Of a stretch of 46,336 bases of DNA, positions 141 through 43,354 are shown in pieces. The translations under genes were made by a program, and so were the position numbers. The DNA lies in NCBI GenBank assembly GCA_017461445.1, contig JAFTXW010000035.1:1-46336 (forward strand), written 5' to 3'. The stretch comes from Oscillospiraceae bacterium. GTDB lineage: Bacteria; Bacillota; Clostridia; Oscillospirales; Oscillospiraceae. Positions within the stretch are counted from its first letter, which is position 1. The number at the start of each line of letters is the position of its first letter. Below the pieces are notes generated by a model. That model was not told where the DNA came from, did no database searches, and was given only the letters and a program-made list of their open reading frames with translations.

Positions 141-1046
141 TTACTCAACAATTCCGCCTTCGACGACCAGGGAATCCGGGTCGGCGGCCTCGCCGTACAC
201 AGGGGCCAGGGTAGCCTCATAGTCGGCATGGAAGAAGTTCTCCCCGCCCAGGGCTTCGATCTCGCCGTTCAGCCAATCCAGCAGGGTGGTGTTGCCCTTC
301 TGGACAGCGGGAGCGATGGTATCCGCGTTGCCCAAAGCGTCGATACCGACGGTAAAGCCGGGGTTGCTGAGGGCCCAGGCCAGAACCTCCGTGTTATCCG
401 TGGAGAAGGCATCGCCGCGGCCGTCCAGCAGGGCGTTGTAAGCATCGGCGTACTCATCGTACTTCTGCAGCTCCACATCGGGGTAGTTCTTCTCGAAGAA
501 GGTCTCGGCGGTGGTGCCCTTGACCACGATCAGGGTCTTGCCGTTCAGCTCCTCCACGCTGGTGATCAGCGCATCATCGGGGGACACAACGCCCAGCATG
601 ACCTTCATGTAAGGCAGGGCAAAATCCACCTGCTGCGCCCGCTCTTCGGTGACAGTGAAGTTCGCCAGAATGATATCCACCTTGCCGGTCGCCACATATT
701 CCACACGGCTGGCAGGATCGGTGGAAACATACTCTACTGCCACGCCCAGATCCTGGGCGATCCGTTCCGCGAAGTAAACATCATAGCCCTGGTATTCGCC
801 GTTTTCGTCCACATAGCCGAAGGGAGCCTTGTCGCTGAAAACGCCGATGACGACCTTGCCGCTCTCCTTGATCTCGTCCAGGGTACGGAAGGAAGCGTTG
901 GATACGGCAGTTGGGGAAATGGAAGCGATTTCCGTGGGATTTTCCGTATCCGCAGGTTCGCTGCCGCAGCCTGCCAGGCTGCCCAGGATCAGCAGAGCGA
1001 TGGTCGTAACCGCGATCAGCTTGCGAAGTGTGTTCTTCTTTTTCAT
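141..1046 (-). CDS. Amino acid ABC transporter, substrate-binding lipoprotein
   Basis: Extracellular solute-binding protein of the polar amino acid family (SBP_bac_3), about 301 residues, anchored as a lipoprotein and delivering an amino acid to the permease pair. I start it at ATG 1046 because the product then has a signal peptide with lipobox LAGC (Cys27), and AGAAGGA lies just upstream; the longer frame has no such start. Motifs such as GKVVIGVF, FGYVDENGEYQGYDV and TGKVDIILANFTVTEERA are typical of the family. It is the last gene of a four-gene transport operon and its start is one base from the ATPase stop. The substrate is not readable from the sequence. The Met/Cys-rich leader peptide upstream and the sulfur genes nearby suggest cystine or another sulfur amino acid (inference). 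Confidence 0.9.
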   Translation of the reverse strand: MKKKNTLRKLIAVTTIALLILGSLAGCGSEPADTENPTEIASISPTAVSNASFRTLDEIKESGKVVIGVFSDKAPFGYVDENGEYQGYDVYFAERIAQDLGVAVEYVSTDPASRVEYVATGKVDIILANFTVTEERAQQVDFALPYMKVMLGVVSPDDALITSVEELNGKTLIVVKGTTAETFFEKNYPDVELQKYDEYADAYNALLDGRGDAFSTDNTEVLAWALSNPGFTVGIDALGNADTIAPAVQKGNTTLLDWLNGEIEALGGENFFHADYEATLAPVYGEAADPDSLVVEGGIVE

Positions 1047-1047
1047 A

Positions 1048-1839
1048 TCAATTCCTTCTTTCAAAAGATTCAATTTCACTGGGGATTTTATTTCGTTTTT
1101 CATAGGTAAAGGTCTGCAGGAAGTCCTTCGCCCGTTGGGTCTTGGGGTTCGTGAAGAACTGCTCCGGCGGAGCTTCCTCCACGATTCCGCCTCCGTCCAG
1201 GAAGAGGATCCGGTCGGCAATGGCCCGGGCGAACTGCATTTCGTGGGTCACGATCACCATGGTCATGCCCTGTCCGGCCAGCTCCAACATCACATCCAGA
1301 ACCTCCCGAACCATTTCCGGGTCCAGCGCGGCTGTCACTTCGTCGAAGAGCATCACTTCCGGATTCATGCACAGGGCCCGGACGATGGCAACCCGCTGTT
1401 TCTGTCCGCCGGACAGCTCCCGGGGGTAGGCTTTCCGTTTTTCCCAGAGGCCCACCCGTTTCAGCAGCTTTTCCGCCTGCTGCTCCACTTCCCCTTTGGC
1501 GCGCTTCTGCACCTTCACAGGGGCAAGGGTAATATTGTCGAGGATATTTTTATGGGGAAACAGGTCGTAGCTTTGGAATACCATGCCGATCTTTTGCCGC
1601 TGCTTTGTGATATTTTTGCCGCCGGAGGTGATGGCCGCCCCGTCAAGGCAGATGATGCCTTCCGTTGGGGCTTCCAGGCCGTTCATACAGCGAAGCAGCG
1701 TACTTTTGCCGCAGCCGGAGGGGCCCAGAACCACGACCACCTCTCCTTTATGGACATCCAGGTCGATGCCGTTTAAAACGGTCTCGGCTCCAAATTTCTT
1801 TTTCAGCCCCGATACCTGAAGCTGGATCGATTCTTCCAT
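1048..1839 (-). CDS. Amino acid ABC transporter, ATP-binding protein
   Basis: Cytoplasmic ATPase of a polar amino acid importer (GlnQ/TcyC type), 263 residues, normal length. Walker [10 protein letters not shown] is near residues 39-47, the signature is LSGGQKQR, and Walker B leads into [10 protein letters not shown]. The usual text there is DEPTSALDP; the P to V change is tolerated in some members and the catalytic Glu is kept. An H-loop sits in VTHEMQFAR. The gene lies between the second permease (6 bases upstream) and the binding protein (1 base downstream), so the four genes should be cotranscribed. Confidence 0.95.
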
Positions 1840-1845
1840 GGTCTG

Positions 1846-2520
1846 TCACCTCCATCGCTGTTCCAGTTTCTTCGCCAGGCTGGAAATGGGCCAGCAGGCA
1901 AGAAAATACAGCGCAAATATCACACCATACACCCACAGCGCGGCAGTGGGGTAATCAAATCGGTTGGCGTCAATGATCTGTTTGCCCACCTTCAGCACTT
2001 CCGTGATGCCGATGAGAACCACCAGGCTGGTGGTTTTGATCATGCGGGTGGTCAGGTTGATGGTCAGGGGGATCAGCCGCCGCATGGTCTGGGGGACGAT
2101 AATGAAAACAAAGGTCTGTGCCTTTGTCATGCCCAGGGCCGCCGCGCTGTCATACTGGTGCTTTGGGATGCTGATGAGCGCGCCCCGCACCAGATCGCCC
2201 ATCTCCGCCGTTCCCCACAAGGTGAACACCAGAACCGCACTCAGCTCCGCGGAGAGGTTCCAGCCAAAGGCTCTCGTCACGCCAAAATAGGCAATGAACA
2301 GCAGCACCAGCTGGGGCATGATGCGGATAAATTCCAGATACACCCGGCTGAGTGTCCGGGTAATGGGATTTTTCAGGGTCATGAACATGCCGAACAGAAT
2401 GCCCAGAGGAATGGACAGGATCACCGCGATCAGGCTGATGCGCATGGTCACCCAGAGGCCTTCCAGCAGCCGCAGGAAGTTTTTTCCCAGGAACAGAACG
2501 TTAATTCCCGAATCCGGCAT
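1846..2520 (-). CDS. Amino acid ABC transporter, permease
   Basis: Membrane subunit of the HisM/TcyB family, 224 residues with about five hydrophobic segments. The EAA loop is visible as AAALGMTKAQTFVFIIVPQ and contacts the ATPase. It overlaps the upstream permease by 20 bases, which indicates translational coupling, and probably pairs with it as a heterodimer. The annotated ATG gives a reasonable N-terminus (MPDSGINVLFLGKNF). Substrate specificity cannot be read from the sequence. Confidence 0.92.
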   Translation of the reverse strand: MPDSGINVLFLGKNFLRLLEGLWVTMRISLIAVILSIPLGILFGMFMTLKNPITRTLSRVYLEFIRIMPQLVLLFIAYFGVTRAFGWNLSAELSAVLVFTLWGTAEMGDLVRGALISIPKHQYDSAAALGMTKAQTFVFIIVPQTMRRLIPLTINLTTRMIKTTSLVVLIGITEVLKVGKQIIDANRFDYPTAALWVYGVIFALYFLACWPISSLAKKLEQRWR

Positions 2521-3202
2521 ACCGCAGCCTCCTTTCCAGAACCGACGCCAGAATGGAAACCGGCAGCAGAATGATGAGGTAAGCGATCACCAGCATCAGC
2601 AGTGCTTCATCGGTTTCATAATAAAGGCCGATCAGGTCTTTGGTCACATACATTAGATCCGCCAGGGCGATGCCGCTGACGACGGATGTCTCCTTGATCA
2701 GGAAGATCATATTGGCACAGACGCCGGGAACGGACACCGCCAGAGCCTGGGGGAAGATCACTTCCTTCATCATCAGCAGCTGTCCCATTCCGAGGCTGGC
2801 TGCGGATTCCAGCTGGCTCTTTTCAATGGATTCCAGACCGCTTCGGATGGACTCCGCCATGTAGCTGCCGCCCAGGAAGGTCAGTCCGATGATGGCGCAG
2901 CTTTCCGCACTGAGGACAATTCCCAATTTGGGTAGACCGAAATACAGGAAAAACAGCTGAACCAACAGGGGCGTATTTCTGCTGAGCTCGATGTACACCG
3001 CAACAATTCTATGCAGGACCGGCACACGATAGTATCGCAGAATGGAGCAAATCACGCCCACAAGAAGGGCCAGCAGGATCCCCCAGAAAGCAATGGCCAC
3101 CGTCAGCTTCGCCGCGTCCACATACCAGGGCAGGTATTTGACCATAAATTCGGTATTCAATTGGTTCCAAAAGTCGAATCTCAGACGCATACTGTCCGCC
3201 AT
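2501..3202 (-). CDS. Amino acid ABC transporter, permease (first gene of operon)
   Basis: Membrane subunit of the same family, up to 233 residues, with EAA loop AASLGMGQLLMMKEVIFPQ. It is the first structural gene behind the leader peptide and terminator at 3357-3558. The start is uncertain. ATG 3202 has GGGAG directly against it, which is too close for a normal ribosome site, whereas the in-frame ATG at 3190 (MRLRFDFWNQL) has the same GGGAG about 12 bases upstream. The longer form is listed. Leader, permease, permease, ATPase and binding protein read as one transcription unit controlled by attenuation. Confidence 0.9.
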   Translation of the reverse strand: MADSMRLRFDFWNQLNTEFMVKYLPWYVDAAKLTVAIAFWGILLALLVGVICSILRYYRVPVLHRIVAVYIELSRNTPLLVQLFFLYFGLPKLGIVLSAESCAIIGLTFLGGSYMAESIRSGLESIEKSQLESAASLGMGQLLMMKEVIFPQALAVSVPGVCANMIFLIKETSVVSGIALADLMYVTKDLIGLYYETDEALLMLVIAYLIILLPVSILASVLERRLRYAGFGN

Positions 3203-3429: not shown

Positions 3430-3558
3430 CTACGCGGCACACAGTTGAGCCTTAAAAAAGGAGAACACATCGGGTCGGGGCATACGGAACGCCATGCACA
3501 TACCGCAACAGTACATGTACATCCGCATTCTATTCAAGGAGGAAAAAGAAGTCTTCAT
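3430..3558 (-). CDS. Met/Cys-rich leader peptide of the transporter attenuator
   Basis: A 42-codon frame starting at ATG 3558, with GAAAGGAG about ten bases upstream, and ending in TAG 3430-3432. The middle reads RMRMYMYCCGMCMAFRM. In total the peptide has seven Met and four Cys, with one adjacent Cys pair, far above chance. It follows a consensus promoter and operator and precedes an intrinsic terminator and an amino acid ABC transporter. The best reading is a leader peptide whose translation senses charged tRNA-Cys and/or tRNA-Met and so controls read-through into the transporter. Firmicutes usually use SAM riboswitches or T-boxes for these amino acids, so a peptide attenuator would be unusual. 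Expression is not proven by the sequence alone. Confidence 0.75.
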   Translation of the reverse strand: MKTSFSSLNRMRMYMYCCGMCMAFRMPRPDVFSFFKAQLCAA

Positions 3559-3587: not shown

Positions 3588-3610
3588 ATTCCTACTTGTT
3601 TTGTAGGAAT
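3588..3610. promoter_or_regulatory. Perfect palindromic operator, probable Rrf2/CymR-type site
   Basis: ATTCCTAC, seven bases, GTAGGAAT: a perfect 8-7-8 dyad placed just downstream of the -10 box (3623-3628), where a bound repressor would block transcription initiation of the transporter operon. A close relative overlaps the start of cysK transcription (13840-13862), beside an Rrf2 regulator gene. The assignment to that regulator is inference. Confidence 0.7.
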
Positions 3611-3688: not shown

Positions 3689-3720
3689 AAAAAACAGCCA
3701 TTTGGAAATGGCTGTTTTTT
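3689..3720. terminator. Bidirectional terminator between the two sulfur operons
   Basis: A perfect hairpin: AAAAAACAGCCATTT, two bases, AAATGGCTGTTTTTT. It lies 16 bases after the stop of the class II amidohydrolase gene, so its main role is to end the T-box operon. It also insulates the transporter promoter just to its left. Confidence 0.9.
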
Positions 3721-3735
3721 GTTAAAAAATCCATA

Positions 3736-4509
3736 TCACAGTGCCGAATAGTCCACAAACATCATGTGCATATCCTTTTCATTATCCCGGTACACGTTGC
3801 CATGATCCGTCCCCTGGAACAGCCTGCGGCCATCCTGGTAGGCGCACAGCACCGTGAAGGGATGGGGGTTCCAGCTGCCCCGGTCCAGCGGGGTAGTCGC
3901 GAAAAGAATTGCCTCCTCCCGCTGGCTGTAATAGAGAGAATCCGCGTAATTTGTATGGACATAGAGCATTTCTCCATCGTAAATCAGCAGATTCAGCTTG
4001 TTTCCCTTGGCCATGTCACCTACCAGCCCGTCCAGCAGGGAAAACCTCTCCTCTTTTGTCAGCCCACGGCCCAGTTCCAGCTGACGCTGGTTTACCTGAT
4101 CCACCAGGAAGCAGAGAATCCGCTCACTGTCCGTCCGGCCCTCCTGCTGGTGCAGGTAGGGATCGTGCCGGGGGTAATCAAAAATCGTCCCATTATGGGC
4201 CAGGGTCCAGCAGCGGTCATAATTGTCCCGCAGCACAAAGGGGTGACAGTTCACATACTCCATCATGCCCCTGGTGGCAAGACGGATGTGGGCGATCATA
4301 TTTCGGACGCTGATTTTCTGGTGAAGCCGCTCCTTTAGATACGCACTTTTGATGGCCTGCACCGGCTCCTTTTCCAAAGAAACGGAATTCTCATAGAAGA
4401 TGGCCATGCCCCAGCCGTTGGCATGGGTCACACTGTGAGAAAAGAATTCTTTCAGCAGGCCGTTCACTTCGATCTTCCGGCCGGAGCTGACCCCAAACAA
4501 TTCACACAT
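3736..4509 (-). CDS. Class II glutamine amidotransferase-like amidohydrolase (YafJ/EgtC type)
   Basis: A 257-residue stand-alone Ntn-hydrolase glutamine amidotransferase domain. Met1 is followed by the nucleophile Cys2 (MCELFG). Further family motifs are HIRLATR at 74-80 (Arg binds the gamma-glutamyl carboxylate), NCHPF at 87-91, AHNG at 104-107 and TDSE at 126-129. No synthase domain is fused to it, so it probably hydrolyses a gamma-glutamyl amide rather than feeding ammonia to a partner, as EgtC does on a gamma-glutamyl-cysteinyl intermediate. It overlaps the glutamate-cysteine ligase gene by eight bases, strong context for a substrate built from gamma-Glu-Cys. Family assignment is firm; the substrate is inference. 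Confidence 0.88.
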   Translation of the reverse strand: MCELFGVSSGRKIEVNGLLKEFFSHSVTHANGWGMAIFYENSVSLEKEPVQAIKSAYLKERLHQKISVRNMIAHIRLATRGMMEYVNCHPFVLRDNYDRCWTLAHNGTIFDYPRHDPYLHQQEGRTDSERILCFLVDQVNQRQLELGRGLTKEERFSLLDGLVGDMAKGNKLNLLIYDGEMLYVHTNYADSLYYSQREEAILFATTPLDRGSWNPHPFTVLCAYQDGRRLFQGTDHGNVYRDNEKDMHMMFVDYSAL

Positions 4510-5785
4510 CCGCTTCCTCCTGCCGCTGCCAGGCCAGCTCCAGACCCTTTTTCACAAAGCCCCCATCGTAAGCCTGGCGGATCTTCCAGGCATAGCGGTT
4601 GTCGCCGTCAATAAACTTTTCCCGTTCAAAGGCCAGAACCTCCTGTACGTCTTCCGGGAAATCCCTGTAAAACGCCGACATCCGTTCCAGAACGCTCAGG
4701 GCGGCATCCGTTACAGAGCAGACCTCCCCGTTGGGCGGCACGATCTTCACCGTTTTCAGATCATAATGGGCAGCATTTTTGAAATTCTGCACCGCCTGAA
4801 CCTGGTCTTTGGTGGAAAGCGGCTCCCGGGGTGTAGCCGCCAGCCAGACCAGGAATAGCTGGGCAAAGACCAGATCCCGTTCCTCGATGCCGCTTGGCAC
4901 CAGGGGATTCAGGTCAAACATCCGCAGCTCGATATGGTCCACCCCCTGCTCCCGCAGGGTGCTCAGCTTGTTCACGCCCCGGGGCTTCAGGCGAATGGGA
5001 TAATACAGCTCCGTGGGGAACCGCAGCAGCCCATCGTCCACATACCGCTGGATGCTGTCCGCATAGGCGCGAATATTGGTGTAATCAAAAATCGGAGCGA
5101 AGTAATTCCAATACCCCAGTTCACTGCACCGGGTAGATGCCAGACCATTGAAGGTATTGGCATCAAACTTGCCTTTTTCCACGAAGGAGCTGTCCAGCAG
5201 GGGACTGGCGGCTGTCACCGCCACCAGCAGCCAGCCGTAGGCCGCCGCCTTCTCCGCCAGAGCCACATACAGCTGATTCTTATATTCGGTAAAATCCCCT
5301 TCCCCGCTGAGGGCAAAATCCTCCCGCAGCAGCGTTTCGTCGAAGGAATAATTCACATGGATGCCGGAGAAGGCCATTTTATAGCGTCCGTAACGGTCGG
5401 AAAGATACTCCCGGTATGCCGTCTTGTCCGCCTGCTCGCCGTAGAAGCGGGCAACGGGGATATCCTCCTCGTTTCGGATGTAGGGCGGATTGGAGAAGGG
5501 CCACAGGTATTCCCGCTTGGGCAGACGCTTGATGGTTCTCTGGATCTGGTGGTCGTATTTTACCAGTGCCGCCACCGCTTCCGCCGCGCTGTGCGCTACC
5601 GGCGTGTTGATCTCCGTCTGATTTTCACAGAAATCCCGGACGATATGGTCGTCGTTTGGGAAGGGGTGGCTGGTGTGGGAGAGGAAGCCCTCTTCATCCA
5701 CCCGCAGGCTTTCCTTTTCCAGGCCGAAGTTTCCCCGCAGAAGCAATTCTCTGATTTTCGGATGATCTGCGTGCAGCACGATCAT
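4502..5785 (-). CDS. gshA: Glutamate-cysteine ligase (GshA / N-terminal GshF type)
   Basis: ATP-dependent ligase predicted to join the gamma-carboxyl of glutamate to cysteine; 427 residues, close to the ligase half of GshF. Visible family motifs are NFGLEKESLRVD at 19-30, DFCENQTEINTP at 51-62, GIHVNYSF, and HIELRMFDLNPLVPSGIEE, the counterpart of the YIEVRSIDINPF block in E. coli GshA. There is no fused glutathione synthetase domain; the next gene upstream encodes a separate ATP-grasp ligase and overlaps by four bases (ATGA). It could supply gamma-glutamylcysteine for glutathione, or for another thiol in view of the amidohydrolase and C-S lyase in the same operon. Confidence 0.88.
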   Translation of the reverse strand: MIVLHADHPKIRELLLRGNFGLEKESLRVDEEGFLSHTSHPFPNDDHIVRDFCENQTEINTPVAHSAAEAVAALVKYDHQIQRTIKRLPKREYLWPFSNPPYIRNEEDIPVARFYGEQADKTAYREYLSDRYGRYKMAFSGIHVNYSFDETLLREDFALSGEGDFTEYKNQLYVALAEKAAAYGWLLVAVTAASPLLDSSFVEKGKFDANTFNGLASTRCSELGYWNYFAPIFDYTNIRAYADSIQRYVDDGLLRFPTELYYPIRLKPRGVNKLSTLREQGVDHIELRMFDLNPLVPSGIEERDLVFAQLFLVWLAATPREPLSTKDQVQAVQNFKNAAHYDLKTVKIVPPNGEVCSVTDAALSVLERMSAFYRDFPEDVQEVLAFEREKFIDGDNRYAWKIRQAYDGGFVKKGLELAWQRQEEADV

Positions 5786-7011
5786 TCACTTCCTTTCCCT
5801 TGCATCCAGCCGGTTCCGTCCGCGTGGCGCAGAATGAAGTCGGCCTGCTCTTCCAACTCCTCTACGGAATCGGACCACAGCAGATAGATATAGCTGCCCA
5901 TGCCGCCGGAAATGGCCTCCGGGGGACGGTTTTCCAGCAAAATTCTGTCCCAATACCGGCTGCGGACTTCCTCCGGCCAGTGCAGATACCGTATTTTTCC
6001 GCCCCGGCCCACATGGGTCACATATCGCTTAAAGGTATAGTTGGGGAAGGAACGGTTCTCGTTATACACCAGGCTCTCCGCCCAGATCTGGTAAACATCC
6101 ACGTCATAGGTGTAGTTCATCTTGTCCGGGATTCGCCCGCCAGGGGCCCGCATATTCACTTCCAGGCCCAGAATTTCACCCTTTTGGCCCAGTCCCTCCT
6201 TGTCCTCGTCCAGCCGGAAGAACTCAAAATGGAAGAAGCGGTTCCGGGGGCAGAACGCCGCCACCACCCGGCTGCCGATGTCGAACAGGTCACTTTCCTG
6301 CACATTCTGGGAGTAGCTGACGTTCTCGCCGCTGCCATGGAGCATTTCCATAGGCGTCTGCACCATCACCTGCCCGGCGCAGAAGAGGATATTGCCGTCC
6401 CGGTCAGTGATGCCGTCAAAAGTCTCCACATGGCCCGGCACGAACTCCTCCATGATGAAGGGAATGTCCGGCTTGGCGGCGAAGAAGGCCTGAAGCTCCT
6501 CGTCGCAGGTCAGCTTTTCCGTATTGGACGCGCCCACGCCGGTATCGGGCTTCACCACCACCGGGTAGCCCACCTGCCGGATAAAGCTCCGGCAGCCCTC
6601 CAGGTCGTCCACCAGATGGAACCGGGCAGTCTTGACCCCCGCCTTCCGATAGCCCTTCTTCATCTCGGACTTGCGCTTCACCGCGTCCAGATCAGAAGTG
6701 TGGAAGCCGGTGGGGATGTTGAAATCCGTCCGCAGTCTGGCTTCCAGCTCCAGCCAGTATTCGTTCTGACTATCGATGTAGTCGATGCGGCCATAGCGGA
6801 AAATGTAGAACGCCACAGCCTTGTACACTTCCTCATAGTTTTCCAGGCTGTCCACCCGGTAGTATTCGGTGAGAGAGGCTTTGCAGTTGTCGCTGATGTT
6901 GTCATACGGGGTATCGCCGATACCCAGAACGTTCACGCCCATCCGCTTCAGCCGGTCGCAGAACTGGTAGAAATGGAGGGGAAAATGGGGAGAAATAAAA
7001 ATCACATTCAT
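5782..7011 (-). CDS. ATP-grasp ligase of unknown substrate
   Basis: A 409-residue ATP-grasp enzyme. The N-terminus MNVIFISPHFPLHFYQFCDR is a pre-ATP-grasp Rossmann-like fold. Lys154 in YPVVVKPDTGVGASNT binds ATP, FIMEEFVPGHVETFDG at about 185-200 is the hinge and base-binding region, and LGLEVNMRAPGG at about 281-292 carries the metal-binding Glu and Asn. It is not a recognisable GshB; it resembles generic carboxylate-amine ligases. It sits between the esterase (12-base gap) and the glutamate-cysteine ligase (4-base overlap). It probably joins a carboxylate to an amine, possibly extending gamma-Glu-Cys or Cys; the partner is unknown. Confidence 0.8.
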   Translation of the reverse strand: MNVIFISPHFPLHFYQFCDRLKRMGVNVLGIGDTPYDNISDNCKASLTEYYRVDSLENYEEVYKAVAFYIFRYGRIDYIDSQNEYWLELEARLRTDFNIPTGFHTSDLDAVKRKSEMKKGYRKAGVKTARFHLVDDLEGCRSFIRQVGYPVVVKPDTGVGASNTEKLTCDEELQAFFAAKPDIPFIMEEFVPGHVETFDGITDRDGNILFCAGQVMVQTPMEMLHGSGENVSYSQNVQESDLFDIGSRVVAAFCPRNRFFHFEFFRLDEDKEGLGQKGEILGLEVNMRAPGGRIPDKMNYTYDVDVYQIWAESLVYNENRSFPNYTFKRYVTHVGRGGKIRYLHWPEEVRSRYWDRILLENRPPEAISGGMGSYIYLLWSDSVEELEEQADFILRHADGTGWMQGKGSE

Positions 7012-7023
7012 AGCCTTTTACTC

Positions 7024-7776
7024 CTATGTCCACAAATAGTCCATCCAGACAGGAAGCTGATACTCCCAGCTGGATTCGTTATGTACGCCGCCCTCCTGGC
7101 GGAAAAGATACGTCTGCACGCCCTTCTGCTGCACCAGATACTCCAGATGCCGGATGCTCTGCTCCAGGTGCCAGACCCCCTCGGGGGAATCCTCGGCGGT
7201 GCCCCAGCTGAAGAAAACTCTGGTATCCGGGGAGAAGCTGCCGTTCCCGATCTCCCTCTTGAAATCCTCCATGGCGGGAAGCAGCGCGGGAGAGATCACC
7301 GCCGCCTTTGAAAAAATGTGGTTATACCGCAGCACTGTGAACAGTGACATCATGCCGCCCATGCTGTAGCCCGCGATGGCGGTGGCCTCCCGGTGGGGCC
7401 AGGTGCGGTAGTTTGCGTCGATCCAGGGCTTCAGCTCCTGAACGACCCAGTCCATGGTCGCGCCGCCCCGGCCCCAAAGGTCGCCGTAGATGCGGCTCTG
7501 GATATGGTAGGGACAGTATTCATGGACCCGCTGGATATCATCGGCGGCGCAGGCAATGCCCACCACAATGAACTTTTTGCCCCAGCGGTCCAGGAAATCC
7601 TTCATGCCAAGGCATTTTCCGAAGGTGGCGTCGCTGTCAAAATACAGGTTATGCCCGTCAAACATATAGATGACCGGGTACCGCTCCTGACTGTTATTAT
7701 AATCATCCGGCAGATACAGATGAATGCCCCGGTTCTCTCCCGCGGGAGAAAAATAACGCTCAAATTTCGTGACCAT
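7024..7776 (-). CDS. Alpha/beta-hydrolase, esterase D / enterochelin esterase-like
   Basis: A 250-residue putative esterase. The nucleophile elbow is AGYSMGGM with Ser138, the core strand YPVIYMFDGHNL is typical of the Fes/EstD-like family, WGTAEDSPEG may carry the acid, and His in GGVHNESSW near the C-terminus completes a triad. It has no signal peptide, so it acts in the cytoplasm. It overlaps the C-S lyase gene by 17 bases and is therefore an integral operon member. A hydrolase of this type could remove an acyl or thioester group during synthesis or breakdown of the operon's product; the substrate cannot be told. Confidence 0.82.
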   Translation of the reverse strand: MVTKFERYFSPAGENRGIHLYLPDDYNNSQERYPVIYMFDGHNLYFDSDATFGKCLGMKDFLDRWGKKFIVVGIACAADDIQRVHEYCPYHIQSRIYGDLWGRGGATMDWVVQELKPWIDANYRTWPHREATAIAGYSMGGMMSLFTVLRYNHIFSKAAVISPALLPAMEDFKREIGNGSFSPDTRVFFSWGTAEDSPEGVWHLEQSIRHLEYLVQQKGVQTYLFRQEGGVHNESSWEYQLPVWMDYLWT

Positions 7777-8974
7777 TCACAGCCCCCCTTTCCTTCCGTA
7801 AGGCTTCCGCCGCCAGTTTCAGCCGTTCCAAAGCCTGTTCCAGCGTGGCTCTGGGACAGGCCAGCACCACCCGCTGGAACTGCCCGCCATTCCCGCCGAA
7901 AATATGACCGGCATCCAGCCACAGCTTTGCCCGGTTCACGATAAGATCATCCAGTCCGCGCCGGGACAGGCCCAGCCCGGAGCAGTCCAGCCACGCGAAG
8001 TAGGTACCCTCCGGTTCCACCAGCCTGATCTCCGGGATGTTTTCCCCCAGATAGGCCCGCAGATAGTCCAGATTCTCCCGCAGATAAGCCCGGCACTGGC
8101 CCAGCCATTCCCCGCCCGAAGCATAAGCGGCCTGACAGGCCACGAGACCCAGCGTGTTCAGCTGAGAATAGCCGCTGCGGTCGATCTCTTTCAGGAAAGC
8201 CTCCCGGATCTGCCCGCTGGGGATCCAGATGTTGGACACCTGCAATCCCGCCAGATTAAAGGTCTTGCTGGGGGCCGTGCAGACGATGGCCTGCTCCGCC
8301 AACTCCGGGTTGGCTTCCAGAAATACATGGTGAGGATGCTCCTCAAAAGAGAAGTCGCAGTGAATTTCGTCGGAGATCACATAGATATTGTATTTTTTGC
8401 AGATCCCGCCGATCCGCCGCAGCTCCTCCAAGCTCCACACCCTGCCCACAGGGTTATGGGGGCTGCAAAGAAGGAACAGCTTTACCTGCCGCTCCACGAT
8501 CTTGCGCTCAAAGTCCTCAAAATCAACGGAATACCGTCCATTCCGGTAAACCAGTTCATTCTCAACCACCGTTCTGCCGTTATCCCCGATCACGCTGAAG
8601 AAGGGGTAATACACAGGGGGCTGGATCAGCACCGCGTCACCGGGCCGGGTCAGGGCCCGCACCGCCATGGCCAGGGCATAGACCACACCGGGGGTCTTGA
8701 CCAGCCACGTCTGCCTGGTCTGCCAGCCGAACCGCCGGGAAAACCAGCGGGCAACCGCGTCGTAATAGTCCGATTTCACATCGCTGTAGCCGAAAATTCC
8801 GTGATCCACCGCCCGGTGCAGGGCTTCCAGAACCGGCCTGGGCGCGGGGAAATCCATATCCGCCACCCACAGGGGCAGAACATCCGCAGGCTTGCCCCGC
8901 TCCACAGCAAAGTCATACTTCAGACTATTCGTATTTTGGCGGTCAATGACCGTGTCAAAATTATATTGCTCCAT
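7760..8974 (-). CDS. PLP-dependent C-S lyase, MalY/PatB family
   Basis: A 404-residue fold-type I aminotransferase-like enzyme. WVADMDFPAPRPV (36-48) is diagnostic for MalY/PatB C-S beta-lyases. Other marks are SPHNPVGR at 171-178 (Asn contacts PLP), SDEIHCD at 201-207 and PLP-binding Lys237 in APSKTFNLAGLQ. The usual reaction cleaves cystathionine or cysteine S-conjugates to a thiol, pyruvate and ammonia. The gene starts four bases after the trans-sulfuration gene. Within this operon it may make homocysteine or release a thiol from a cysteine conjugate, as EgtE does; the latter is inference. Confidence 0.9.
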   Translation of the reverse strand: MEQYNFDTVIDRQNTNSLKYDFAVERGKPADVLPLWVADMDFPAPRPVLEALHRAVDHGIFGYSDVKSDYYDAVARWFSRRFGWQTRQTWLVKTPGVVYALAMAVRALTRPGDAVLIQPPVYYPFFSVIGDNGRTVVENELVYRNGRYSVDFEDFERKIVERQVKLFLLCSPHNPVGRVWSLEELRRIGGICKKYNIYVISDEIHCDFSFEEHPHHVFLEANPELAEQAIVCTAPSKTFNLAGLQVSNIWIPSGQIREAFLKEIDRSGYSQLNTLGLVACQAAYASGGEWLGQCRAYLRENLDYLRAYLGENIPEIRLVEPEGTYFAWLDCSGLGLSRRGLDDLIVNRAKLWLDAGHIFGGNGGQFQRVVLACPRATLEQALERLKLAAEALRKERGAVNGHEI

Positions 8975-8978
8975 TGGC

Positions 8979-10127
8979 TTATTCCTCCAACGCCTGCTTT
9001 AAATCCGCGATAATATCATCCACGTGCTCCAATCCCACGGACAGCCGCAGCAGGGTTTCCGTAATGCCCAGCCGCTCCCGCATATCTTGGGGTACATCAT
9101 TGTGGGTCTGAAGCACGGGATAGGTGATCAGGGATTCCGTACCGCCCAGGCTTTCCGCGAAGGTGATCAGCCTTACCTTTTCCAGCACCCGCCGGGCGGT
9201 TTCCACGCTGTCGGTCCGGAACGAGATCATACTGCCCGCGCCCCGGGCCTGTCTGGCGTTTATTTCATAACCTGGATGCTCCGGCAGGCCCGCATAGTAC
9301 ACCCGGGTGATCTTCGGGTGTGTCTTGAGCCAGCGGGCCACCCGGAGGGCATTTTCCTGCTGGCGTTCCATGCGGACTGACAGGGTCTTGATGCCCCGCA
9401 GCATCAGCCAGCAGTCAAAGGGTGCCAGGATGCCGCCCGTTGTCTTGGCGATCATACGCACCCGGTCCGCAAGCTCCTGAGAAGCGCAGGAAAGGAAGCC
9501 GGAAAGAGTATCGTTGTGTCCGCTGAGGAATTTGGTGCCGCTGTGCAGCACGATATCCGCGCCCAGCTCGATGGGATTCTGCAAATAAGGTGAAAGGAAG
9601 GTGTTGTCCACAATGAGCAGGAGCTCCTGTTCCCGGGCAATTTGCGCGCAGGCATGCAGATCGGTAATGTTCATCATGGGGTTACTGGGGGTCTCGATGT
9701 AAAGTGCCCTGGTACAGGGGCGAAGCTTCGCCCGGATCTGCGCGGCATCCGTGGTATCCACAAAATCCACGGCAAGGCCATTCTTGCTTCCAATGGTCTG
9801 CAGCAGCCGGGTGGCTCCGCCGTACAGGTCCTCGGAACAAATAATGTGATCCCCGGGCTGGAACAGCTCAAAGCAGGCACTGACGGCCGCCATGCCGGTG
9901 GCAAAGGCCACCGTATCCCGGGCTCCCTCCAATGCGGAGATGGTTTCTTCCAGCCGCTGCCGGGTGGGATTCTGCACCCGGGAATAATCAAAGCCCGTGG
10001 ACTGTCCAACGCCGATATGTCCAAAGGTCGCGGTCTGATAAATGGGAAAGCTGACTGCCTTATTTGTATCCTGACAGCTGAAATCGGAATTTCCGTGAAT
10101 ACATCGTGTTTCAATGGATCTGCTCAT
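8979..10127 (-). CDS. Trans-sulfuration PLP enzyme (cystathionine gamma-synthase / gamma-lyase family)
   Basis: A 382-residue Cys/Met metabolism PLP enzyme. It shows SRVQNPTR (49-56), the substrate and cofactor site, YIETPSNP at 143-150, DNTFLSPYLQNP at 174-185, and PLP Lys199 in HSGTKFLSGHND. Synthase, gamma-lyase, beta-lyase and O-acylhomoserine sulfhydrylase cannot be separated by eye. GGAGGT lies a few bases before the ATG. It is the first gene after the T-box leader and the pair with MalY is the classic Cys/Met interconversion set, which supports sulfur amino acid control of the whole operon. Confidence 0.92.
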   Translation of the reverse strand: MSRSIETRCIHGNSDFSCQDTNKAVSFPIYQTATFGHIGVGQSTGFDYSRVQNPTRQRLEETISALEGARDTVAFATGMAAVSACFELFQPGDHIICSEDLYGGATRLLQTIGSKNGLAVDFVDTTDAAQIRAKLRPCTRALYIETPSNPMMNITDLHACAQIAREQELLLIVDNTFLSPYLQNPIELGADIVLHSGTKFLSGHNDTLSGFLSCASQELADRVRMIAKTTGGILAPFDCWLMLRGIKTLSVRMERQQENALRVARWLKTHPKITRVYYAGLPEHPGYEINARQARGAGSMISFRTDSVETARRVLEKVRLITFAESLGGTESLITYPVLQTHNDVPQDMRERLGITETLLRLSVGLEHVDDIIADLKQALEE

Positions 10128-10155
10128 ATGGGACGACCTCCAGTTCTTCTGCTGT

Positions 10156-10430
10156 TACGAAAAAAGCCCGCCTTCTGCCATAGAAGACGAGCAAAACGCA
10201 CGTGGTACCACTTCTGTTCATCCCGGCAAACGCCGGAACCTCTTTTCGGATATCCAACAATATCCTTTGCTGTAACGGGCAGACCCGGCGTGACTTACCT
10301 TTTCGCTCAGCCACGCTGCTCCGGAGCCATGTTCATCCGATGCGCACCGTCTTCTCTCAGCAAACAAAGACTCTCTGGAAGATGCGCGGTTCGAACTACT
10401 CTTTCCTTCACTGCATTTGAAACTATATGT
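10156..10430 (-). promoter_or_regulatory. T-box leader, probably tRNA-Met responsive
   Basis: The minus-strand leader holds the T-box core TGGTACCACG (10201-10210) just before a terminator, and upstream a Stem I-like region with CAGAGAG and a TTTGCTGAGAG apical motif. After that arm the text GAACATGGCTCC offers ATG (10328-10330) followed by a purine in the expected specifier position, giving Met; a Cys codon TGC also occurs nearby but is placed less well. Uncharged tRNA should favour antitermination and switch on the six-gene operon. The T-box itself is clear; the amino acid is inferred from the specifier and from the genes. Confidence 0.85.
10160..10192 (-). terminator. T-box terminator
   Basis: GCTCGTCTTC and GAAGGCGGGC form the stem around a six-base loop, with two G-U pairs, followed by TTTTTT on the minus strand. 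Placed directly after the T-box sequence, it is the terminator half of the T-box switch. Confidence 0.88.
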
Positions 10431-10441
10431 GGTTTTTTATA

Positions 10442-10470
10442 ATTATAGGAAATGTCTTCCGAAAAGTCAA
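10442..10470 (-). promoter_or_regulatory. Promoter of the T-box operon
   Basis: On the minus strand TTGACT (10465-10470), 17 bases, TATAAT (10442-10447). The transcript would start just before the T-box Stem I region. Confidence 0.85.
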
Positions 10471-10489: not shown

Positions 10490-10497
10490 GTAGGAAT
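10490..10497. promoter_or_regulatory. GTAGGAAT half-site between divergent promoters
   Basis: A complete GTAGGAAT word lies between the two divergent promoters at 10442-10470 and 10515-10543. The partner half-site seven bases away is poor. It may be a weak or single half-site for the same regulator that is proposed for 3588-3610 and 13840-13862. Confidence 0.4.
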
Positions 10498-10514
10498 TTA
10501 TTTTGTGGAGCCTA

Positions 10515-10543
10515 TTGACAAGTTCTTTTTATTCCGCTATAAT
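10515..10543 (+). promoter_or_regulatory. Consensus promoter for the DUF2318 operon
   Basis: TTGACA (10515-10520), 17 bases, TATAAT (10538-10543), both perfect. It faces right, towards the leader with the terminator at 10602-10636 and the DUF2318 gene. Confidence 0.9.
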
Positions 10544-10585
10544 CCCCATAAACCAACTGGTACAGTGGGTTAAGCAAAGTGAAAA

Positions 10586-10636
10586 CGTCCGACCCGCATA
10601 CGGGGTGTCCTGCAGAAACGGACGCCCCGCTTTTTT
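10586..10636 (+). terminator. Attenuator-like terminator in the DUF2318 leader
   Basis: GGGGTGTCC (10602-10610) and GGACGCCCC (10620-10628) form a stem followed by GCTTTTTT, about 60 bases after the transcription start and 30 bases before the gene. CGTCC at 10586-10590 could compete for GGACG, so two alternative folds are possible. The leader is only about 95 bases long and does not match a riboswitch class I can name. It may instead end a small RNA. Confidence 0.7.
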
Positions 10637-10667
10637 CGTATTCTCATTCTTCCAGAGGAGTATCAAA

Positions 10668-11174
10668 ATGAAAAAGAACATGCAAATTCCTATTTTACCC
10701 ATTCTGGCCGCGGCGGTGGTTGTGGTCGCGGCCGCCGTGACCCTGCTGCCGAAGCTGTCTCCGGATACGGCTCCCCAGCAGTCTGAAAGCGCGCAGATCG
10801 CGGAAAACGGCGACCTTGTCCTTCAAATTGAGGACATCGGAACGGAAGCCAGCTTTATCGATTACGACGCGGATGGCACCACCGTCCAGCTGTTCGCGGT
10901 TCTGGCCTCCGACGGCACCGTCCGACTGGCACTGAACACCTGCCAGGTCTGCAACGGCTCCCCCTATGCTTACTTTACCCAGGAGGGCGACTGGTTTATC
11001 TGCCAGAACTGCAAGAACAAGTTCGCCTCCACCCATGTGGGCATCGTCAGCGGCGGGTGCAACCCCATCCCCATCACCGACGGGGTCTACACCCAGCAGG
11101 AGGGAACCATCCGTATCCCGGCATCCTTTCTGACGGAAAGTGCCGCTTTGTTTCAAAACTGGAAGAACTTTTGA
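10668..11174 (+). CDS. DUF2318 membrane-anchored metal-binding protein
   Basis: 168 residues from ATG 10668, which has AGAGGAG upstream; the longer frame runs through the leader and terminator and is rejected. One N-terminal membrane segment follows MKKNMQ, then an acidic linker and a domain with NTCQVC and FICQNCKNKF, two CxxC pairs, plus GGCNPIPI. This Cys pattern is that of DUF2318, predicted to bind a metal such as Fe or Cu outside the membrane. It is followed 14 bases later by an HMA/TauE/cupredoxin fusion, which supports a metal-handling role. The exact function is not established. Confidence 0.82.
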   Translation: MKKNMQIPILPILAAAVVVVAAAVTLLPKLSPDTAPQQSESAQIAENGDLVLQIEDIGTEASFIDYDADGTTVQLFAVLASDGTVRLALNTCQVCNGSPYAYFTQEGDWFICQNCKNKFASTHVGIVSGGCNPIPITDGVYTQQEGTIRIPASFLTESAALFQNWKNF

Positions 11175-11188
11175 CCCCGGAGGATCCT

Positions 11189-12475
11189 ATGGAAAAGCGG
11201 CATTTTGATATCGGCGGCATGACCTGCTCCGGCTGCGAACGGGCCGTCGAGCGGGCGGTATCCCGGCTGGATGGCGTTCATTCTGCCCGGGCGGACCACC
11301 AGAAGGGGCAGTTGGATGTGGAATTTTCCCCGCCCTGCACCCCGGAAAGAATCGGGAATGCGGTAGAAAAGGCGGGCTATGAAGTCACGGATAAGCCCCG
11401 GAGCAAAATGGACGCCCTGTATCTGCTGATCATTCTGCTGGGGCTTTCCGTCATCGCCCGGCAGCTTGGCTGGACGGAGATTTTCCGGGCAGTCCCAACG
11501 GTAAGCGGCCAGCAGCTGGGATATTTGACCCTGTTCCTTACCGGCCTGCTGACCTCCGTCCACTGCATTGCCATGTGCGGCGGCCTGAACCTGGCACAAA
11601 GCATCAGCGGCGAGCACCACAGCCCCATCTGGGGAAGCCTGCTGTATAATCTGGGGCGGCTGACCAGCTATACCCTGATTGGCGGCCTTCTGGGGTTTAT
11701 CGGGGAAAAGGCAGCCATTACCCTCCGGGTACGGGGGCTGATTGGACTGTGCGCGGGCATCGGAATGCTGCTGATGGGCATTCGCATGCTGACGGGCTTT
11801 TCCCTGCCCCGAAAGTTTCGGATTTCCTTACCAAAGGGTCTGGTAAAGAGGCTGAACGCCTTCAAAAAATGCGGCCCCTATGCTGTGGGATTGGTCAACG
11901 GCTTTATGCCCTGCGGCCCGCTGCAATCCATGCAGCTGTACGCCATCGCCAGCGGCAGCTTCTTTGTGGGAGCCTCATCCATGTTTTTCTTCTGCCTGGG
12001 AACGATCCCGCTGGTGCTGCTCTTCGGCGCGGCTGCGGGAATTCTGAAACAGAACTGGCGTCAGAAAATTCTGCAGCTTGGCTCCGCCATGCTGGTTCTG
12101 ATCGGACTTTCCACCATGCAGAACAATCTGGCTCTGACCGGGGTTACGCTCCCCTGGGCCAAAAGCGGCGGCGAGAGCACCGTCATCAGCTCCACCATAG
12201 ACGGCGGCGTACAATATGTTTCCACCACGCTCCGGGCCAATGGCTATGACGATATCCGGGTCACTGCCGGAATTCCGGTCATCTGGACCATCACCGTGGA
12301 GGAAGCGGCCCTGAACGGATGCAACAACGAAATTTTCCTCCCGGCCTTTGACCAACAGGTCAAGCTGGAAGTGGGCACCACGACCATTTCCTTCACGCCG
12401 GAAAAAGCCGGCACCTATCCCTATACCTGCTGGATGGGGATGCTGCAAAATACGATCACTGTAACCGAGGAATAA
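11189..12475 (+). CDS. HMA domain - TauE/SafE-like membrane protein - cupredoxin-like fusion
   Basis: 428 residues from ATG 11189, with CGGAGGATC before it. Residues 1-65 are a heavy-metal-associated domain with GGMTCSGC (Cys13, Cys16). The centre is a six- to seven-helix membrane domain with LTSVHCIAMCGG and VNGFMPCGPLQ, the Cys-Gly/Pro-Cys signatures of the TauE/SafE (UreH/DsbD-like) group. The last ~90 residues look like a cupredoxin-type domain with GCNNEIFLP and YPYTCWMGM, in which Cys and Met are possible copper ligands. Together with the DUF2318 neighbour it probably moves or buffers copper; this is inference from domains. Confidence 0.85.
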   Translation: MEKRHFDIGGMTCSGCERAVERAVSRLDGVHSARADHQKGQLDVEFSPPCTPERIGNAVEKAGYEVTDKPRSKMDALYLLIILLGLSVIARQLGWTEIFRAVPTVSGQQLGYLTLFLTGLLTSVHCIAMCGGLNLAQSISGEHHSPIWGSLLYNLGRLTSYTLIGGLLGFIGEKAAITLRVRGLIGLCAGIGMLLMGIRMLTGFSLPRKFRISLPKGLVKRLNAFKKCGPYAVGLVNGFMPCGPLQSMQLYAIASGSFFVGASSMFFFCLGTIPLVLLFGAAAGILKQNWRQKILQLGSAMLVLIGLSTMQNNLALTGVTLPWAKSGGESTVISSTIDGGVQYVSTTLRANGYDDIRVTAGIPVIWTITVEEAALNGCNNEIFLPAFDQQVKLEVGTTTISFTPEKAGTYPYTCWMGMLQNTITVTEE

Positions 12476-13839: not shown

Positions 13840-13862
13840 AATCCTAGCAGGAAGGTAGGAAT
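13840..13862. promoter_or_regulatory. Operator-like dyad at the cysK transcription start
   Basis: AATCCTAG, seven bases, GTAGGAAT: the right half is perfect and the left half matches six of eight positions of the dyad at 3588-3610. Spacing and position relative to the promoter are alike at both sites, which suggests the same repressor, most simply the Rrf2 protein encoded next door. Confidence 0.65.
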
Positions 13863-42820: not shown

Positions 42821-43015
42821 AGCCCCCAAGAGTCCTGCGTACAGATCATTCGTCCGTATTCCGACTCCGGACGCCATCTTGTATGTCTCTTCTCAGCTTG
42901 CGCCAATGAGATCATACGGCTTTATGTCCGTCTACGGCGGCTTGGTACCGTTGGGATTTTTCCCCATTCCAATTTAACGAATGTTCTTCAAAAGCAATAT
43001 AACAGGCTTTCACCT
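42821..43015 (-). promoter_or_regulatory. Cobalamin riboswitch for the cobamide/ECF operon
   Basis: Read on the minus strand: AAAGGTGAAAGCCTGTT, then TTAAATTGGAATGGGGAAAA, the AATCCCAACGGTACC core, GCCGCCGTAGACGG, and the closing GGAGTCGGAATACGG. Order and spacing match the cobalamin aptamer, somewhat diverged. It lies between a promoter at 43023-43051 and the terminator at 42613-42646, so B12 should repress the minus-strand uptake and salvage operon. Confidence 0.75.
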
Positions 43016-43099: not shown

Positions 43100-43290
43100 A
43101 GTGAATATCCGTTTGAGTGCCTGTGGGTGTGGTAACAGCCCCATGGGAGAATAGAGAATCGTGTGCAAATCACGAACGGTACCGCCACTGTATGCGTGGA
43201 GGTTCTGCTGTTGGGCGAAAGCCGGTCATTGGGGTTTCCCTGAGAAGGCCATGCAAAACCTAAGAAGCGCAAGTCAGGAGAACTGCTTAA
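43100..43290 (+). promoter_or_regulatory. Cobalamin riboswitch 1 (plus strand)
   Basis: Clear RF00174-type features: GGGAGAATAG, GTGTGCAAATCACG, ACGGTACCGCCACTGTA, AAGCCGGTCATTGG, GAAGGCCATGC and AAGTCAGGAG in the right order. A terminator follows at 43355-43391. B12 binding should stop transcription towards the DUF4430 lipoprotein. Confidence 0.92.
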
Positions 43291-43354
43291 ACGATGTGAA
43301 CCACACCGGGGTCTGCAAGTACGGACTGCGGTGGTCTTTGACGCGGAAAAACGG

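Follow-up and report, generated by a model that had tools for sequence, protein, structure and literature searches.

A methionine T-box operon of an Oscillospiraceae bacterium with a probable transsulfuration pair and a putative γ-glutamylcysteine module

Why would a glutamate–cysteine ligase, a second ligase of the ATP-grasp class and a hydrolase of the class II glutamine amidotransferase type (GATase) stand under the same T-box as two enzymes of cysteine and methionine metabolism? The question is raised by a stretch of 46,336 nucleotides, here called the window, from an Oscillospiraceae bacterium (assembly GCA_017461445.1, contig JAFTXW010000035.1, positions 1 to 46,336). Six genes follow one T-box leader on its − strand (10127–3736), either 4 or 12 bases apart or overlapping; the original prediction had named these six in close spacing under one T-box, and matches to Pfam, NCBIfam and Rfam together with the coordinates bear it out. 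It had also read them as a thiol pathway with the logic of ergothioneine synthesis. Of that reading, the gene content, the failure to find EgtB and EgtD, an ATP-grasp ligase other than GshB and the co-occurrence of the genes elsewhere stand; the EgtE role given to the C–S lyase does not.

The best explanation, put forward tentatively as one that falls somewhat short of probable, is that the operon joins a methionine-controlled transsulfuration pair to a γ-glutamylcysteine (γ-Glu-Cys) module of GshA, ATP-grasp ligase and GATase. It builds on what is observed: the order of the genes and their conserved linkage, the methionine-type T-box, the class of fold to which the ligase belongs and the conservation of residues that are likely to be catalytic; the substrates and products are putative. 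The elements of the operon are as follows (PLP, pyridoxal phosphate; CGL and CGS, cystathionine γ-lyase and γ-synthase).

10442..10470, − strand: operon promoter, sigma-70-like, TTGACT-17-TATAAT, found by eye; similar in loci L001 and L004
10180..10420, − strand: T-box leader with AUG (Met) specifier and UGGU antiterminator bulge (RF00230, 115.9 bits, cut-off 93)
8979..10127, − strand: CGL/CGS-like PLP enzyme of Cys/Met metabolism (PF01053)
7760..8974, − strand: PatB-family C–S lyase (TIGR04350, 461.7 bits, cut-off 340)
7024..7776, − strand: α/β-hydrolase esterase (PF00756)
5782..7011, − strand: ATP-grasp ligase with L-amino-acid-ligase (RizA/YwfE) fold (weak match to PF02222, 27.4 bits, cut-off 27)
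4502..5785, − strand: GshA-type glutamate–cysteine ligase, single domain, 427 aa (PF04262)
3736..4509, − strand: GATase_4-type class II hydrolase with Cys2, without synthase domain (PF13230)
3689..3720, − strand: terminator-like hairpin at the 3′ end of the operon

In the proposed scheme, the CGL-like and PatB enzymes would convert cysteine and acylated homoserine to homocysteine. GshA, judged by its family and active-site conservation, would make γ-Glu-Cys; the ATP-grasp ligase would join the cysteine carboxylate of this dipeptide to an acceptor amine (probably that of an amino acid) to yield γ-Glu-Cys-X; and the Cys2 hydrolase would strip the glutamyl group to leave Cys-X or free cysteine. 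The esterase accompanies the ligase and might hydrolyse the product in an ester or thioester form. The product may thus be an undescribed small sulfur peptide or a cysteine reserve. No published description of the operon or of a GATase–ligase module was found in titles and abstract openings, a search whose coverage leaves out most subscription journals.

Methionine-type T-box and the probable transsulfuration pair

The specifier loop of the operon T-box reads GAAC-AUG-G. The T-box that precedes the methionyl-tRNA synthetase gene (Pfam-confirmed) of the same genome has an identical loop and the same UGGU bulge, which argues for methionine specificity. The bulge also matches A73 of tRNA-Met: tRNA genes with a CAT anticodon end in A-CCA (both of the two inspected), and tRNA-His ends in C-CCA. 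A further T-box match in the genome (L108; 60.7 bits against a cut-off of 93) has a UGC specifier with a UGGA bulge, a pattern alike to that of cysteine T-boxes in C. perfringens, as far as the accessible part of the source describes them (PMC2940859). A cysteine-specific T-box is ruled out by specifier and bulge, and the leader is, as read from its sequence, a sensor of methionine and not of cysteine. The T-box and its AUG are retained in L001 and L004 despite an altered lower stem; no T-box above the cut-off is found in L002, L003, L005, L064 or L162.

The first enzyme is CGL/CGS-like, its sequence not separating CGS from CGL, and the PatB-family lyase is probably a cystathionine β-lyase. 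Because the predicted pair lies under a methionine T-box in genomes that have MetA (four of the four tested), it is best read as an ordinary methionine transsulfuration pair. It is also separable from the core of esterase, ATP-grasp ligase, GshA and GATase: in L162 the two units are divergent, and in L003, L005 and L002 (the last on a short contig) the pair is not seen beside the core. Together with the lyase's passing the PatB model, this placement and separability tell against a C–S lyase in the role of EgtE.

A closer coupling can be envisaged, in which the CGL-like enzyme uses γ-Glu-Cys as its sulfur nucleophile, GATase deprotects the product and PatB cleaves it to homocysteine, an ergothioneine logic with homoserine as the acceptor. 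The T-box ahead of all six genes in the window, L001 and L004, the cluster of L064 (CGL–PatB–GshA–GATase, without ATP-grasp) and the presence of MetA would suit such a route. Known CGS enzymes, however, use free cysteine, and the core occurs without a nearby CGL or PatB gene in L003 and L005; the coupling is therefore regarded as very improbable.

Ligases and hydrolase around γ-glutamylcysteine

GshA was compared with the E. coli enzyme at ten positions, of which seven are identical in all covering rows of 28, and 146 and 151 vary. R235 and Y241 were placed by a motif, the E. coli alignment having a gap there, and the roles of the compared residues are assumed. With its likely catalytic residues in place, the protein is predicted to be a glutamate–cysteine ligase. 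The position of E. coli Q144 is Met in all covering rows; since this includes the relatives of GshF length, the residue is uninformative on a new substrate, and the idea of an altered GshA pocket was dropped. At E 1e-20, GshA is found in 8 of 250 genomes of the family, three of them with GshF-length frames. The genome itself has, at the same threshold, no further GshA- or GshF-like gene besides the window copy and its duplicate. The latter lies on contig C42 of the same assembly. Over the 20 kb compared, the start of that contig agrees with the window base for base at offset 52 and is probably an assembly duplicate.

In GATase, residues C2, R76, N106, G107 and D127 are unchanged in all covering rows of 36, as expected of a class II hydrolase; Cys2 is presumably catalytic and the others presumably bind the γ-glutamyl group. 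The best match of solved structure is the uncharacterised protein 1te5, followed by EgtC. Homologues occur in 16 of 391 genomes of the class and 15 of 394 of the order, both counts including the own genome and the two samples sharing at least that genome and G390.

A Glu-Cys-ligase-like gene stands near GATase in 24 of 28 different genomes other than the own (all read; the exceptions are L069, L076, L080 and L159). These ligases are of three distant kinds: the GshA type; the EgtA/plant type, confirmed by PF04107 in L072, L074, L075, L077 and L078 and assigned by similarity in L160; and a divergent, ligase-like protein termed GCSx, for which five examples gave no match to Pfam and both of the examples compared with the plant-type model gave a weak one. 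In L070 (1775–4438), GCSx and GshA domains are fused in one reading frame next to GATase. As the ligase types swap beside one hydrolase, what is kept appears to be γ-Glu-Cys itself and not one particular protein.

The ergothioneine pathway is ruled out for this gene set. EgtB (TIGR03440) and EgtD (TIGR03438) are each found in none of the four genomes searched with the profile models, in line with what had been predicted; 14 control genomes, which contain no true EgtB or EgtD, give matches under the cut-off in four cases for EgtB and one for EgtD, so weak relatives do register. GATase reaches 61.9 bits against the EgtC model TIGR03442 (cut-off 218.65), the EgtA model TIGR03444 is not among the four families matched by GshA at E 0.001, and EgtE is absent from the best 25 of 62 families matched by the C–S lyase.

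The ATP-grasp ligase had been supposed to be something other than a plain GshB, and both sequence and structure comparisons place it nearer the L-amino acid ligases. Ranked by sequence, its closest solved relatives are the L-amino acid ligase of entry 4wd3 (34.6 bits) and carbamoyl-phosphate synthase, with BacD further down (21.4 bits). The five best Foldseek matches of its AlphaFold2 model (predicted local distance difference test score 90.7) are to RizA, YwfE/BacD and BL00235, with template modelling scores by query of 0.67–0.72. The modelled fold is thus that of an L-amino acid ligase, and residues K114, K154, E188, E284, N286 and R288, which we take to bind ATP and metal in this fold, are unchanged in 23 sequences. 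In the esterase, S138 of the GxSxG motif and H232 are conserved in all covering rows of 17, some of which repeat one gene.

Could the product be ordinary glutathione, made by an unusual route in which the ATP-grasp ligase replaces GshB and adds glycine? The ligase adjoins GshA in a genome without another GshA- or GshF-like gene at the threshold given above, and the esterase has a weak match to the S-formylglutathione hydrolase model (27.6 bits, cut-off 281.7). However, neither GshB nor the second domain of GshF is found, GshA being single-domain and the ATP-grasp ligase nearest to RizA/BacD, and GATase would degrade the product; this route is highly unlikely.

Distribution in relatives and weight of the proposal

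A neighbourhood check shows that the genes do co-occur elsewhere, as the original prediction would require. The window, L001 and L004 have all six side by side. The core is present in L002 (short contig) and L005 without CGL or PatB nearby, and in L162, where CGL–PatB is divergent from it and the contig ends inside GATase; L003 has ATP-grasp–GshA–GATase and lacks the esterase.

In a tree of 41 ATP-grasp homologues, constructed without L022 (split reading frame) and without loci that repeat a gene already included, the seven GshA-linked members form one clade with support of 100/100. Sixteen residues are fixed inside this clade and not found outside it, among the clade-specific ones Q214, S232, K297 and H333, and all seven of its known members adjoin GshA. 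The family as a whole occurs in 12 of 398 genomes of the phylum, the own genome included.

ATP-grasp ligase and GCSx tend to exclude one another. Among genomes with GshA and GATase in one neighbourhood, GCSx occurs in none of the nine with the ATP-grasp ligase (G000, G1299, the L001–L005 genomes, G194 and G134) and in 13 of the 14 without it (Fisher p 1.2e-5, uncorrected for kinship). The count excludes three genomes of the EgtA type as well as L071, L079 and L153, where GCSx is present but no GshA gene is visible; several of the genomes counted are partial or have no stated completeness. A search of 12 whole genomes gave GCSx in two of them, and one of 20 genomes gave the ATP-grasp ligase in three (G194, G134 and G1299). 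In G194 and G134 it is 45–47% identical to that of the window and lies elsewhere in the genome, without a partner esterase within 3 kb. A separate Cys/Met PLP enzyme, 58–82% identical among L065, L153 and L168, accompanies GCSx and GATase in the first two and stands by the ATP-grasp gene in L168; the best 25 of its 69 to 83 NCBIfam matches are all under cut-off and give it no name.

A wider proposal may be drawn from this pattern, namely that Clostridia possess an undescribed family of γ-glutamyl-protected cysteine peptides, initiated by any of three ligase types, extended by the ATP-grasp ligase or GCSx, trimmed to Cys-X by an EgtC-like hydrolase and controlled by methionine or cysteine. Such a family is on the unlikely side, with a chance that is nonetheless sizeable.

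Several observations weigh against the γ-Glu-Cys module as set out above. The exclusion of GCSx by the ATP-grasp ligase may partly reflect kinship, and the genomes of L001–L005 were found via that ligase. G554 has GshA and GATase with neither ATP-grasp ligase nor GCSx, and in L064 the CGL–PatB–GshA–GATase cluster has no adjoining ATP-grasp gene, two such genes (45–46% identical) lying elsewhere in the genome. Outside the clade, 33 ATP-grasp loci were examined; their available flanks contain no gene for GshA, GATase, GCSx or an EgtA-like protein, and 20 of the 33 have an esterase of one of two partner families within 3 kb. Control by methionine starvation also fits a protective thiol somewhat poorly, being an odd time to spend cysteine.

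The esterase-bearing loci outside the clade, which include Erysipelotrichaceae, Chloroflexota and Synergistota, suggest that ATP-grasp ligase and esterase might be an independent pair acting on an unrelated metabolite and merely sharing the operon; the occurrence of the ligase family across the phylum would agree, and the window esterase belongs to one of the partner families (27–41% identity to those outside the clade). Against this, every clade member found adjoins GshA, the clade has its own fixed residue changes, and L003 keeps ATP-grasp ligase, GshA and GATase together without an esterase. An independent pair is accordingly held to be quite unlikely. The pair is scattered over several phyla (for example, L006–L009, L011, L013, L087, L088 and L093–L095); in L006, it stands beside genes for a class-V aminotransferase and a 2-hydroxyacid dehydrogenase that resemble serC and serA.

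Shared regulation, sulfur supply and known systems

Next to the operon lies an ATP-binding cassette (ABC) transporter unit, and the promoters of both have operator-like sites.

10490..10498, − strand: operator-like half-site AATTCCTAC, upstream of the operon −35; the same site, with small changes, in L001 and L004
3623..3651, − strand: promoter of the ABC transporter unit, consensus, 12/12 matches
3588..3610, strand unassigned (.): palindromic operator-like site ATTCCTAC-N7-GTAGGAAT, directly following the −10 element of the ABC promoter
3430..3558, − strand: leader reading frame, rich in Met and Cys, ahead of the ABC transporter genes; as judged by eye, it lies within a hairpin that has T residues after it
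141..3202, − strand: amino-acid ABC transporter (two permeases, ATPase, family-3 binding protein), whose substrate (cystine, glutamine or others) is undecided

The window has three copies of AATTCCTAC, where 0.20 would be expected, and all three lie in promoters, namely those of the ABC unit, the operon and rrf2–cysK. Allowing up to three mismatches, ATTCCTAC-N7-GTAGGAAT has two window sites, against 0.08 expected, the second being a two-mismatch copy (13840–13862) in the interval that separates a cysK-like gene from the gene for an Rrf2-family regulator (Pfam). L001 and L004 have similar sites at both the ABC and the operon promoter, and L001 has one ahead of cysK too. Because these sites are common to the ABC, operon and cysK promoters, the operon is predicted to sit in a cysteine/methionine regulon, for which a CymR-like Rrf2 regulator is, we presume, the obvious candidate. 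Leader frames are also seen in L004 (13477 ff, +, with a similar peptide), upstream of the ABC genes in L078 and upstream of cysK in L001; none was seen before the ABC genes of L001. They are possible cysteine/methionine attenuators. The cysK leader frame of the window stops early.

This regulation suits a cysteine reserve, in which GshA stores γ-Glu-Cys, a Dug3-like GATase returns cysteine at methionine or cysteine shortage, and ATP-grasp ligase and esterase modify the store. The methionine T-box and the operator-like site common to cysK and the transporter are in its favour, as are several other loci in which GATase and a ligase lie near cysK-, CGL-, O-acetylhomoserine (OAH)-sulfhydrylase- or MetNI-like genes. 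A precedent is yeast Dug2/Dug3, a glutathione-degrading complex that is required for γ-Glu-Met use, according to the accessible part of the source (PMC7617739). A reserve leaves the dedicated second ligase unexplained, however, and a ligase and a hydrolase translated from the same mRNA would run a futile cycle in the absence of further control; it is considered unlikely, if a serious candidate. Since control by methionine starvation fits sulfur supply better than a protective thiol, both the reserve and the protected form of transsulfuration stay alive beside the γ-Glu-Cys module. That module may make a thiol or mobilise cysteine.

Some features nearby stand apart from these arguments. A stretch of 18 residues, MKNVFEQLVRANFRFGRM, lies between GATase and permease and is identical in three genomes (window 3342, −; L001 13445 ff; L004 13682 ff), its frame in the window continuing past the stretch. 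Genes for FtrD-like and HMA-DsbD membrane proteins adjoin the operon (10503–12475, +), and an HMA-DsbD relative is also nearby in L004, L005 and L162. Two divergent cobalamin riboswitches lie about 100 bases apart (42835–42996, −; 43103–43304, +). A role in phage defence was considered and rejected, as none of the six proteins has a match in PADLOC.

Little is known, as we understand it, of the low-molecular-weight thiols of gut anaerobes. A ligase–ligase–hydrolase set around γ-Glu-Cys, thinly spread over Clostridia and tied to methionine/cysteine control, offers a concrete candidate, open to assay, for either a cycle of cysteine storage or a novel thiol peptide. It would also help in finding out what the widely scattered ATP-grasp/esterase pair does.

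With ergothioneine EgtABCDE the operon shares a γ-Glu-Cys ligase, a class II γ-glutamyl hydrolase and a PLP C–S lyase in one operon, whereas EgtB and EgtD are not found, the ligase is of the GshA type, GATase is far under the EgtC cut-off, the lyase is of the PatB family and control is by a methionine T-box. As regards glutathione synthesis (GshA/GshB, GshF), the window GshA is closest to the GshA part of GshF, but there is no GshB domain and the second ligase has an L-amino-acid-ligase fold. That ligase resembles RizA, YwfE/BacD and BL00235 in fold, as its top five Foldseek matches, and is only 14–19% identical to them, its substrates here being putative. With the yeast DUG system (Dug2/Dug3) the operon has in common a GATase-type γ-glutamyl hydrolase in sulfur metabolism; here, however, the protein is bacterial and stands alone (a Dug2 partner was not searched for). 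In S. aureus, a methionine T-box precedes cystathionine γ-synthase, as stated in the accessible part of the source (PMC2494555). A methionine T-box thus controls transsulfuration in both cases, but in the present operon its control reaches on to the γ-Glu-Cys module.

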